From Bdellovibrionales bacterium (GTDB taxonomy: Bacteria > Bdellovibrionota > Bdellovibrionia > Bdellovibrionales > Bdellovibrionaceae): 10,847 nucleotides of DNA. Positions 1,489 through 6,348 of the stretch are shown one piece after another; positions within the stretch are counted from its first letter, which is position 1, and each line of letters begins with the position of its first letter. Both the position numbers and the translations under genes were made by a program. The notes under the pieces are model-generated. The model did not search any database. It saw nothing but the letters and a program-made list of their open reading frames with translations, and was not told where the DNA came from. The stretch is taken from positions 1 to 10,847 of the forward strand of contig DAHVKR010000015.1 in assembly GCA_027320785.1 (NCBI GenBank), in the 5' to 3' direction.

Positions 1489-1971
1489 ATGGCAAAAAAG
1501 AAGAAGGCGACTAAAAAGGCTGCTAAGAAAACAACTAAAAAAGTAAAAGCTAATAAAACCACTAAGAAAGCAGCAAAGAAGGCTGCCACTAAAAAGACAG
1601 CTAAAAAAGCCACCAAAAAAGTAGCCAAAAAGGCGACAAAGAAGGCCGCAACTAAAAAAGCTGCTAAGAAAACAACTAAAAAAGCAAAATCTCAACCTAA
1701 AGCTAAAAAAGTTATAATTGAAGAAACAATCATTCAAACGACTCCTATCCTTGATGACATCGCCAGTGAATTTGATGATGAATCTGAAATGGACTCCATG
1801 ACAGGTTTGGATGATGATCTGACTCCTGAGGAAGATGATGAGTGGAGTGAGTCTGAAAAAAATGATGAAGATAACTTTGAAGATCTCGAAGATGATGAGA
1901 CTCTAGAGTCAGAAGACCTTCCTGACGACGATGAAGATGATGATGATGATGGAGAAGAAGGTTACTTCTAA
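1489..1971 (+). CDS. Histone H1-like lysine-rich protein with long acidic tail
   Basis: A 160-residue, strongly dipolar protein. Residues 1-74 hold 36 Lys and no Arg in KKAA/KKTT/KKAT tetrads, the composition of bacterial H1-like DNA-binding proteins (Hc1/Hc2, AlgP C-terminus and similar). Residues 75-88 form a short hydrophobic link (VIIEETIIQTTPIL). Residues 89-160 are dominated by Asp and Glu, ending DDDDDGEEGYF; I count 43 acidic residues and one Lys after residue 74. The halves nearly cancel in charge. A perfect AAGGAG ribosome-binding site lies 6 bases before the ATG, and a strong terminator follows. The likely role is nucleic-acid binding or compaction, with the tail perhaps competing with DNA or binding basic partners; this is inference. 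No AT-hook (RGRP) is seen. The antisense open frames here are artefacts of the AAG/AAA repeats. Confidence 0.85.
   Translation: MAKKKKATKKAAKKTTKKVKANKTTKKAAKKAATKKTAKKATKKVAKKATKKAATKKAAKKTTKKAKSQPKAKKVIIEETIIQTTPILDDIASEFDDESEMDSMTGLDDDLTPEEDDEWSESEKNDEDNFEDLEDDETLESEDLPDDDEDDDDDGEEGYF
1510..1543 (+). repeat. 34-nt direct repeat, copy 1, inside H1-like gene
   Basis: This stretch recurs 141 bases (47 codons) downstream at 1651-1684 with a single third-position mismatch (G/A). It encodes TKKAAKKTTKK in both places. Near identity at synonymous positions, with varied KKxx codons between the copies, points to recent duplication or gene conversion. Confidence 0.85.
1651..1684 (+). repeat. 34-nt direct repeat, copy 2, inside H1-like gene
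   Basis: Second copy of the element at 1510-1543, in the same reading frame, with 33 of 34 bases identical. Recombination between the copies would delete or add 47 codons of the basic region without a frameshift. Confidence 0.85.
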
Positions 1972-3557: not shown

Positions 3558-4631
3558 TTATTTTGTTGGACGAGTATGAACGGCGTACTTATCAAACTCA
3601 CCATATTCATGCAGTTTGTTATACAAAGTCTTAATGGTAATACCTAAGTTCGTTGCCGCTTGAGTTTTGTTTCCACCGTAGAAATCAAGAGCTTTTAAGA
3701 TATATTTTTTCTCGAGTTCATAAAGAGGAAGCTGTGGATCATACTCAATAAACTTATCATTCTTTTCAGGAGTTCGGATATGATCAGGAAGATCTCCTAA
3801 CATAATCTCATGACCCTCTGAAAGAATTTGTAATCTTTCACAAACATTTTGAAGCTCACGAATATTTCCCGGCCAATCATATTTCATCAAAGACTGCATT
3901 GCCTCTTCAGAAACTTTACGACCACGATTTAAATAAGCGTGATGAGATTGATTTAAAAAATGGCTAATCAAGACAGGAATATCTTCTTTTCGACGTCTTA
4001 AAGGCGGAGTTGTCACAACGATTGTATTGATTCGATAGTAAAGATCTTCACGGAAGTGATTGTTTGCAACTTCCTGCTCTAAATCTCGATTAGTTGCAGA
4101 GATCAAACGGATATCCACTTTAATAGGCTCTTTACCTCCTACACGGTAAATCTCACCCTCTTGGATAAAGCGCAGAAGCTTAGCTTGAATTCCAGGTGAT
4201 AATTCACCAATTTCATCTAAGAAAAGGGTTCCACCATTGGCAACCTCCGCCAATCCCATCTTGCGATTGTAAGCTCCTGTAAATGAGCCCTTTTCGTGAC
4301 CAAAAAGCTCTGACTCTAAAAGAGTTTCACGAAGAGCTCCACAGTTGATGGCGACGAAAGGCTTTGATTTGCGGTTTGAACGATCATGAATCGCTCGAGC
4401 AATAAGCTCCTTCCCCGTACCAGACTCACCCATCACCAACACATTGGCTTGCGAGGGAGCTACACGATCAATCATCTTAAGAAGCTGGCCCATCACATCT
4501 GATTGGTAAATGATGGCTCGTGTTGTCTCAGCCTTCGCTGCAGGAGCATTCTGCGTGCCCCACTGAAGTTGCTGTCCATTACTGGAAGATGTCGGGAGAA
4601 TTGTGGTCGAGCTATTTGAATTCTCGTTCAT
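3558..4631 (-). CDS. Sigma-54-dependent transcriptional activator lacking a sensor domain
   Basis: A 357-residue bacterial enhancer-binding protein that uses ATP hydrolysis to open sigma-54 RNA polymerase promoters. After a short Ser/Thr/Gln-rich N-terminus (about 1-35) comes a complete AAA+ domain: Walker A GESGTGK (68-74), sigma-54 contact loop GSFTGA (115-120, a common variant of GAFTGA), Walker B TLFLDE (135-140), Arg-finger region FREDLYYR (193-200), and DWPGNIREL (252-260). A Fis-type helix-turn-helix (GGNKTQAATNLGITIKTLYNKL, 319-340, shown here by its span and ends) binds DNA. No receiver, GAF or PAS domain is present, so like PspF it probably depends on a partner protein or its own level for control. 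The ATG has AAGG 8 bases upstream. Targets cannot be read from this window. Confidence 0.95.
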   Translation of the reverse strand: MNENSNSSTTILPTSSSNGQQLQWGTQNAPAAKAETTRAIIYQSDVMGQLLKMIDRVAPSQANVLVMGESGTGKELIARAIHDRSNRKSKPFVAINCGALRETLLESELFGHEKGSFTGAYNRKMGLAEVANGGTLFLDEIGELSPGIQAKLLRFIQEGEIYRVGGKEPIKVDIRLISATNRDLEQEVANNHFREDLYYRINTIVVTTPPLRRRKEDIPVLISHFLNQSHHAYLNRGRKVSEEAMQSLMKYDWPGNIRELQNVCERLQILSEGHEIMLGDLPDHIRTPEKNDKFIEYDPQLPLYELEKKYILKALDFYGGNKTQAATNLGITIKTLYNKLHEYGEFDKYAVHTRPTK

Positions 4632-4863: not shown

Positions 4864-5739
4864 ATGTTAAACTGGCTCCAAGAAGTAGATAACTACTTGA
4901 AATATCTTCAAAATATTAAATCCGCATCCCCTCATACATTACGCTCATATCGAGCAGATCTGCTGCAAATATTCGATGAATCCTCATATAAGATCGGTGA
5001 AAGCGATATCCTATCGCATATTCGATCTCGTCAGGCTAAGTGGTCTGACCTGTCGCCAGCCACCCGAAATCGAAAAGCCGCGGCTCTTAAGAGTTTTTTC
5101 AATTGGCTCTACTCACGTGGAGAAATTTCAAAGGAGATATCTCCCCAAATTATTTGCCCGAAAGTACCACAAAAAATTCCCCACTTTCTCTCTCCAGATG
5201 AGGCCTTAAGCATTTTAAAATCCTATCCTCCAGAACTGAGCCTGGATGAGCTCTACGATAAAACGCTTTTTAGCTTACTTTATGGGAGTGGCCTTCGAGT
5301 CAGTGAGGCCTGCCAACTTGGCTGGAAGCAGGTTGATTTTTCTGGGAGAAGGCTTCTTGTCACTCGTAAGGGACAAAAAGACCAGTGGGTACCCACTCCG
5401 AAGCTTACACAAAATCTTCTTAAAAAATTACAGTCTACGATGAAAAGTAAAAGCTTTATATGGGGAGATCAACCCCTCTCAACTCGTAAAGCCTACGAAA
5501 TAGTCCGCCAAAGGGGAGTCAAAGCTCAGCTCCTCAAGCCACTTCACCCGCATGCTCTGAGACATAGCTTCGCAACACATCTCTTAACCAGTGGAGCAGA
5601 CCTGCGAACACTCCAAGAGCTTCTAGGCCACAATTCTTTGGCCGCGACTCAAAAATATACTCATATCACAACACATGAGTTGGCTCGTATGATGGAATCC
5701 CACCATCCTCTCGGTGGAGAGACTAAAAATTCAAAATGA
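4864..5739 (+). CDS. xerC: Tyrosine recombinase XerC
   Basis: Site-specific recombinase that, with XerD, resolves chromosome dimers at dif in the FtsK-dependent reaction. The 291 residues match the family length. An N-terminal SAM-like core-binding domain (about 1-90, with SPHTLRSYRADL at 22-33) is followed by the catalytic domain, which contains the full set: Arg145 in GSGLRVSEA, Lys169 in TRKGQK, His230 and Arg233 in HPHALRHSF, His256 in LLGHNS, and the nucleophile Tyr265 in QKYTHI. The C-terminal THELARMMESHHP is closer to XerC than XerD endings; the choice rests mainly on that. The ribosome-binding site is modest (GAGAG, 6 bases before ATG). The stop overlaps the end of the convergent recO by 9 bases, so the pair cannot have a terminator between them outside coding sequence. 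Confidence 0.93.
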   Translation: MLNWLQEVDNYLKYLQNIKSASPHTLRSYRADLLQIFDESSYKIGESDILSHIRSRQAKWSDLSPATRNRKAAALKSFFNWLYSRGEISKEISPQIICPKVPQKIPHFLSPDEALSILKSYPPELSLDELYDKTLFSLLYGSGLRVSEACQLGWKQVDFSGRRLLVTRKGQKDQWVPTPKLTQNLLKKLQSTMKSKSFIWGDQPLSTRKAYEIVRQRGVKAQLLKPLHPHALRHSFATHLLTSGADLRTLQELLGHNSLAATQKYTHITTHELARMMESHHPLGGETKNSK

Positions 5740-6348
5740 GGCAGACTTAATATAATGTAAAACGAGCTTTTCAAGAGGCACAGACTTCTCTGTTGCGACA
5801 GCTTTTTGACTTCTGAGCTGCTCCCCAGAATCTGGATCATTCAAATTTAACTTCAAAAAAGGCCTCATCCACTCTTCAACATCCAGTACACCTTGCTGAA
5901 GTAAAAATTTAAGAAGAAACTGCACCTTCAAGAGAATAAGATCCTCAGGATCTTCTAAAGATTCGAGTCTTTTTAATAAATGCCCCATGAGGTTATAAAG
6001 TGAAGCTGAGTGAGAATCTCCCTCTAGAGAAACATGGGAGACACAATTTAGTGACATCAAAGCTAACTCAAGTTTGTCATAATCTTTGCGAATGGGCTCG
6101 AAGCCATTTAAGAGCTGCGCTTCTTTCAGCGAATGCATATCAGATCGAGAAGAAGTCGTATAAACAAGTTTTACATGATGTGTGGGTTCTAAAATGCCCC
6201 CGCCAAATCTCTTTTTAGACCGAAGAGCTCCTCGCGCCAAAAAGGACATTTTTTCACCTTCCCGCGAAAGCGCATGAATAATCAGATCAGCTTCACCGTA
6301 TTTTATTTTCTTGAGTATGAGAAAATGACCTTCTGTTTCTATGCCCAC
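5731..6348 (-). CDS. recO: DNA repair protein RecO
   Basis: RecO binds SSB and single-stranded DNA and, with RecR, loads RecA in the RecF pathway. The 205-residue product has the N-terminal OB-fold of the family: EGHFLILKKIKYGEADLII (6-24), then FLARGALRSKKRFGGGI (36-52), where RecO proteins carry a basic GARxxxSRF..G segment, and ILEPTHHVKLVY (52-63). A helical C-terminal half follows. It is somewhat shorter than E. coli RecO (242) and has no zinc-binding Cys cluster, which many RecO proteins also lack. The start is GTG at 6346-6348, lying within the last codons of the upstream gene: the reading frames overlap by 10 bases, so translation is probably coupled. The 3' end overlaps xerC by 9 bases on the opposite strand. 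Confidence 0.9.
   Translation of the reverse strand: MGIETEGHFLILKKIKYGEADLIIHALSREGEKMSFLARGALRSKKRFGGGILEPTHHVKLVYTTSSRSDMHSLKEAQLLNGFEPIRKDYDKLELALMSLNCVSHVSLEGDSHSASLYNLMGHLLKRLESLEDPEDLILLKVQFLLKFLLQQGVLDVEEWMRPFLKLNLNDPDSGEQLRSQKAVATEKSVPLEKLVLHYIKSASF

Follow-up and report, generated by a model that had tools for sequence, protein, structure and literature searches.

A conserved dipolar protein of Bdellovibrionales joins an H1-like lysine-repeat half to an acidic half in a single chain

The protein encoded at positions 1489-1971 of the plus strand in the window analysed here, a 10,847-nucleotide stretch from a Bdellovibrionales bacterium, is real and conserved, and represents a known general kind of protein in a new arrangement: an H1-like lysine-repeat half is joined within one chain to an acidic half that ends in a short conserved tip. 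Its gene (P0001), whose boundaries as given in a preliminary description made from the letters alone proved exact when the open reading frame (ORF) was re-read, starts with ATG behind a ribosome-binding-site-like AAGGAG (1477-1482, +, read directly from the sequence), encodes 160 residues and is followed by an intrinsic terminator (2004-2030, +) composed of an 11-pair stem and a T run. Residues 1-74 (1489-1710, +) are built of KKA/KKT repeats with 36 Lys and no Arg, Asp or Glu, and residues 75-160 (1711-1968, +) contain 43 Asp/Glu, a single Lys and no Arg, counts that agree exactly with those first reported for this DNA. The net charge of the whole protein is -6, and its charges are strongly segregated: the contrast is 78, and 20,000 shuffles of its residues averaged 12.1 and never exceeded 36. 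We take the ORFs on the antisense strand of the repeats, which mirror the lysine codons, to be artefacts.

AlphaFold2, run on 38 sequences, returned a mean pLDDT of 54 and a pTM of 0.15 with one weak helix at residues 87-103 (ILDDIASEFDDESEMDS; 1747-1797, +), the sole and low-confidence helix predicted and a stretch that is similar in near relatives by alignment; as modelled, the protein is probably disordered along its length. Three conserved pieces of non-acidic character are embedded in the acidic half: this helix, a FEDLEDD segment and the GYF end, the last being part of the C-terminal tip EEGYF (1954-1968, +).

To follow the two halves among relatives, we searched 99 genomes at the protein level, the window's own included, of which 74 matched at E ≤ 0.01, and read 92 genes: the window's, 68 with a match across both halves, those of G021, G082 and G039, and 20 from further families that were likewise picked as spanning matches. 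Both halves lie within one ORF in 90 of these 92 genes, all from the same class, although this is not an unbiased sample because every gene was picked because it matched, and over its full span. Homologues split into two genes or lacking the acidic half, which the preliminary description had named as the outcome that would speak against a built-in pairing, were thus sought, and the dipolar reading came through unrefuted. Counted by genome, 69 of the 74 are represented by a gene read or by the window, and in 67 of these 69 a single ORF encodes both halves. In the other two, G084 and G033, the gene is cut by a contig end and frameshifted, respectively; the repeat half of the G033 gene has suffered an out-of-frame deletion in an otherwise complete genome whose close relatives have intact copies, and an assembly error within the repeat is possible. 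Of the remaining five matched genomes, G066 and G083, read later, have both halves, G056 and G079 match the profile over almost its full length, and G012 matches it only in part. An automatic score, requiring a net charge of at least +20 followed by one of at most -20, was passed by 89 genes; the G021 protein, tested directly, passes at +40/-34. Most of the Bdellovibrio-like genomes examined carry the dipolar protein. A profile model built from 38 members (A1) matched 129 of 143 class genomes at E ≤ 1e-3 and 231 of 368 phylum genomes at E ≤ 1e-6, both counts including partial, lysine-only matches; the 14 class genomes without a match at E 1e-3 include two of the three of family f11. In the scan of named genomes the sole match was a Sandaracinaceae locus (L133), at 52% over query residues 4-102.

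Charge is maintained in kind rather than in exact amount. Among 66 full-length relatives the basic half carries a net charge of +29 to +88 (median +38) and the acidic half one of -21 to -56 (median -40), leaving the whole protein at -14 to +49 with a median of -2.5 and some members strongly positive (+31, +49). Across species, however, the charges of the two halves are hardly correlated (r = 0.18), so that equal charge is typical but inexact and exact matching is not maintained. Arginine is absent in 60 of the 89 scored genes and numbers at most five in the remainder. Of 12 pairs of relatives compared for dN/dS, with some genomes standing in two pairs, three were saturated; the nine usable ones gave 0.012-0.223 over the whole gene, with the basic half at 0-0.147 and the acidic half at 0.022-0.416. 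Purifying selection acts on each half, and the ORF behaves as a real gene.

After the protein start, the C-terminal tip is the best conserved stretch, one that, like the promoter-like element and the gene block described below, goes unmentioned in the preliminary description. Among the 89 scored genes it reads GYF in 70, with Tyr at -2 in 85 and Glu at -4 in 70; the last residue is Phe in 80 and otherwise Val, Ile or Met (9/89), and a hydrophobic pair closes every one of the 89. A tip of this type ends none of 545 ORFs of at least 200 residues in the fetched loci, any frame being considered and lysine-rich ORFs set aside. At the DNA level, the pattern (D/E)(D/E)GYF-stop occurs at 46 places in 40 of 59 genomes, compared with 17 for a reversed control pattern (hand count), and 37 of the places lie at the dipolar gene, two just behind it and seven elsewhere. 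In G029 (L171) and G008 (L170) the coding end, with its GYF tip and stop, recurs 33 nt and 46 nt downstream, respectively, as if by tandem duplication.

Searches of Pfam, NCBIfam and PHROGs yielded no family above cut-off and those of the PDB no fitting chain, and among the open-access papers searched none describes the protein in its title or the start of its abstract. Matches to sigma-factor and TFIIA models were rejected as reflecting composition only, the sigma-factor model NF004560 scoring 20.8 bits (E 1.7e-4) against a cut-off of 711. The basic half can be compared with H1-like proteins such as AlgP of Pseudomonas and Hc2 of Chlamydia, which have lysine-rich repeats whose number varies among relatives, as it does here: the long Lys/Ala/Pro/Thr low-complexity repeat of that group is present (36 Lys in 74 residues), but a strongly basic character overall is not (-6 in the window, a median of -2.5, few members strongly positive). 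In the portions of the literature available on them, neither AlgP nor Hc2 is said to have an acidic half of matching charge, and AlgP is described there as having a helical N-terminal domain in its place.

Basic and acidic regions are nonetheless combined in other proteins. HMGB1 and Myxococcus CarD both join a basic DNA-binding part to an acidic region, and the AT-hooks of CarD and HMGA contain arginine, of which P0001 has none, in keeping with the absence of AT-hooks claimed at the outset. In the Firmicutes RNA polymerase delta subunit and in actinobacterial sigma-factor N-terminal regions a lysine tract stands beside an acidic disordered region, but the folded delta or sigma domains of those proteins are not seen in the dipolar protein by Pfam, NCBIfam or the structural model. 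Likewise, neither a CarD/CdnL domain nor a histone fold of the Bd0055/HBb type gave a Pfam match above cut-off, the model being disordered, and Pfam returned no match to the OB-fold of SSB. HMGA2 is also reported to join a basic DNA-binding part to an acidic region (PMC4482583); from it, as from HMGB1 and CarD, the dipolar protein differs in having no AT-hook, HMG box or folded CarD domain.

Outside the class, 19 of 20 loci read, picked among the matches listed, combine a lysine-repeat half with an acidic one; the exception, in G347, has hardly any acidic part, and in G346, counted among the 19, the second half is rich in Asp and His. The GYF end is found in none of these 20 loci, and none of the window's genes appears in the flanks fetched around them (up to 3 kb). 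Their aromatic motifs are different ones, GYGWGYEEGLDSPE-like in family f12 and EDYFSR-like in f22; in seven f12 loci (L142, L143, L147-L151) the motif GYGW(G/S/D)Y(E/D) recurs within the acidic half and differs from the terminal GYF of the class. The two-half design thus occurs elsewhere in the phylum, and the tip and the gene block described below are seen in this class only. The outside proteins are likened to ours by design, since low-complexity sequence does not settle true orthology. This qualifies the initial view of a built-in acidic half as unusual: the half is indeed kept in 90 of the 92 genes read, but, being shared by other classes of the phylum, it is less isolated than that view implied.

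The gene may well be transcribed independently of the flagellin gene fliC upstream, as it lies between a promoter-like element and the terminator. The element, TTGCCT-17-TAGTCT (1421-1449, +), stands 68 nt before the start codon, overlaps the end of an upstream lipoprotein-like ORF (788-1432) and is unlisted in a strict sigma-70 scan. In 29 of 67 genes the stretch 56-87 nt ahead of the start holds a pattern of TTGC(C/A/T) followed by TAGTCT, TACTCT or TAGCAT, compared with a mean of 0.41 and a maximum of 2 over 200 base shuffles, and the other 38 have no element in that form; the support is weaker than 29/67 suggests because the pattern was drawn up once the sequences had been inspected and many of these 29 genes come from close relatives. 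In genus g6 (G036, G007, G047, G055 and others) an inverted repeat, GCCCCCTTA...TAAGGGGGC, flanks the -10 region of the promoter-like element and is a possible operator.

In light of these data, we propose that the protein is a disordered, polyanion-binding polyampholyte of Bdellovibrionales, probably of the nucleoid, whose acidic half competes with DNA and whose tip serves as a docking peptide, a reading to which we give an even chance and which the self-regulated condenser or chaperone suggested in the preliminary description fits. The lysine-repeat half would bind DNA, or some other polyanion, irrespective of sequence, as do the lysine repeats of histone H1 and of the bacterial H1-like proteins, and the acidic half would fold back on its own lysine half or pair with that of a neighbour, thereby competing with DNA. 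Binding would in this way be weakened and become fast-exchanging and dependent on salt and concentration, following within one chain the logic of prothymosin-α and linker histone H1 of eukaryotes; these are likewise opposite disordered polyelectrolytes, for which a similar exchange on DNA is expected, but they are two proteins rather than one chain, and we know of no homology between them and the dipolar protein. The (D/E)EGYF tip could act as a peptide for docking or as a signal for proteolysis, and a partner that grips the acidic tail there would shift the balance between the DNA-bound and the self-bound state. Autoregulated polyanion binding appears the most likely activity because H1-like lysine repeats are reported to bind DNA, those of AlgP (PMC9239181) among them, and Hc2 is a DNA-binding protein (PMC2848022), because an acidic chain of similar strength should compete electrostatically with DNA, and because H1 and prothymosin-α associate with high affinity in a fully disordered complex (PMC7661507).

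The role of such a protein would likely be to tune nucleoid condensation where the chromosome compacts and decompacts strongly over the life cycle, as the biology of these predators suggests. The chromosome of B. bacteriovorus is reported to be very compact in the attack phase and to relax at replication, and the same account describes how it is squeezed and relaxed as an open question, with as yet unidentified proteins expected to take part in compaction (PMC11318664). Nucleoid proteomics of B. bacteriovorus by LysC/trypsin digestion singled out Bd0055 and Bd1238 as notably abundant DNA-binding proteins, the dipolar protein going unnamed in the available portion of that report (PMC10627809). 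It could have escaped such an analysis because that digestion leaves few usable peptides: cut after every Lys, the G036 orthologue gives one ordinary peptide of at least 7 residues and two hyperacidic ones. The gene is a widely kept candidate for compaction that tryptic proteomics could miss and that is absent from the three family libraries searched, and its product offers a simple natural system for asking whether a disordered acidic half can act as the built-in chaperone of an H1-like half.

Against a DNA-specific version of this proposal, RNA or polyphosphate would be equally plausible ligands of the lysine half, and a polycation that binds RNA, ribosomes or polyphosphate, prevented from aggregating by its acidic tail and acting away from the nucleoid, is possible but rather doubtful in our estimation. 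Any polyanion can be a ligand for lysine repeats, AlgP, which has a lysine-rich domain, has been tied to polyphosphate granules (PMC9239181), and in G036 a ribosomal-L21-like protein (L168, minus strand, read by eye) bears a lysine-repeat tail, a basic-only protein related to ours by composition; nothing in the present data separates this reading from the DNA one. A hydrophilic polyampholyte that shields against aggregation under stress or crowding, with no specific nucleic-acid role, would suit the disorder and the composition, but we consider it highly improbable, as a mere shield should need neither the segregated charges nor the nearly invariant tip. That tip suggests a further possibility, namely that (D/E)EGYF mimics the C-terminal peptide of SSB, for which RecO, PriA, RecQ and others have pockets, and so brings the lysine arm to the replication/repair machinery or competes with SSB. 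The main SSB was found in seven of eight genomes searched, the exception being the window's incomplete genome, and in all seven it ends in (D/E)(D/E)IPF; in five of these seven (G001, G003, G004, G036 and G074) the dipolar protein ends in (D/E)EGYF and shares with SSB the acids at -5/-4 and the terminal Phe, and a recO-like ORF (5731-6348, read by eye) lies in the same window. The dipolar proteins of G067 and G087, however, end in GGGYF, with no acid at -5/-4, and DEGYV, and the Val, Ile or Met that closes nine of the 89 scored proteins contrasts with the PF of all seven main SSBs; moreover, -2 is Tyr and not Pro, three second SSB-like proteins have no such tip, and the nearness of recO may be chance. 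This is a resemblance; we consider an SSB-like hub unlikely and treat the similar ends as a lead on partner pockets. The most specific form of our own proposal, a one-chain counterpart of H1 and prothymosin-α in which a condenser carries its own disordered chaperone, and the replication/repair machinery reads the tip, strips the lysine arm at the onset of replication and opens the attack-phase chromosome, is in our judgement similarly a long shot.

The gene neighbourhood points in yet another direction, toward an accessory that would serve flagellin expression or assembly. The order fliC-[dipolar gene]-sigma54 activator-xerC forms a conserved block: fliC (2-715, +, with its 5' end beyond the window) is a same-strand upstream neighbour, at most 2.7 kb away, in 52 of the 59 loci whose flanks are long enough and, in a further set of loci, in 14 of 20; the sigma54-activator-like gene (3558-4631, -) follows downstream in opposite orientation, at most 5.2 kb away, in 48 of 63 loci with sufficient flank, and xerC is in syntenic position in 44 of 63; since xerC is syntenic too, the block may be no more than gene order that has been conserved. 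Flagellin was detected in 128 of 143 class genomes, and the dipolar gene is unmatched in 6 of the 15 flagellin-less genomes (G118, also flagellin-less, matches weakly at 5e-5) compared with 8 of the 128 flagellin-bearing ones, a difference confounded by general gene loss because the flagellin-less genomes are small (1.2-2.4 Mb). Conversely, G131, G133 and G134 have no flagellin yet carry a full dipolar gene, with the ends DYM, DYM and GFF, the flagellin-less G063, G130 and G132 match over most of the model at the profile level, and many members have the promoter-like element of their own. We accordingly regard a flagellar accessory as improbable, and a strict flagellar link is contradicted by the flagellin-less genomes that keep the gene.

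The product of the sigma54-activator-like gene, an NtrC-like AAA+ protein with an HTH named by eye and with no receiver domain seen on the same reading, is strongly conserved: at E 1e-115 it is matched in 115 of the 143 genomes of the class, with identities of up to 91%. Its co-loss with the dipolar gene was considered and dropped, as the pattern is unclean and what remains is confounded by gaps in the assemblies and by genome reduction: in eight chosen genomes, seven of them without the activator at E 1e-120, a dipolar match is missing in G010, G044, G073 and G109, weak in G012 and G034 and mostly full in G017 and G063, and the activator is present without the dipolar gene in G104, G106, G123, G141 and G142. 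We also rejected an identity of the activator with Bd1238, which Hocher et al. report as an abundant nucleoid protein: the best match of the activator in G036 is at 2,973,493, 10 kb from the dipolar gene, a position that, judged by the numbering, is presumably at odds with a locus number near 1238. Further upstream, a clpB-like ORF (read by eye) is present in six of seven loci laid out. G036 has six flagellin matches, and six flagellin genes are reported for B. bacteriovorus HD100, among them Bd3052 as fliC5 (PMC2791853); by its estimated position, the fliC beside the dipolar gene in G036 fits fliC5.

Lysine-rich segments also occur in other settings. The window's own genome encodes a protein with a Lys/Ala/Thr repeat N terminus followed by a SWIB/MDM2-like segment (L002, 1504-1905, G000:C123) and a Bcp-type peroxiredoxin-like protein with a Lys/Arg-rich N-terminal extension (L003, 1501-2139, G000:C394), both read by eye, and G036 encodes a 43-residue protein of lysine repeats alone (L169, about 409-549, +), a basic-only relative in composition.
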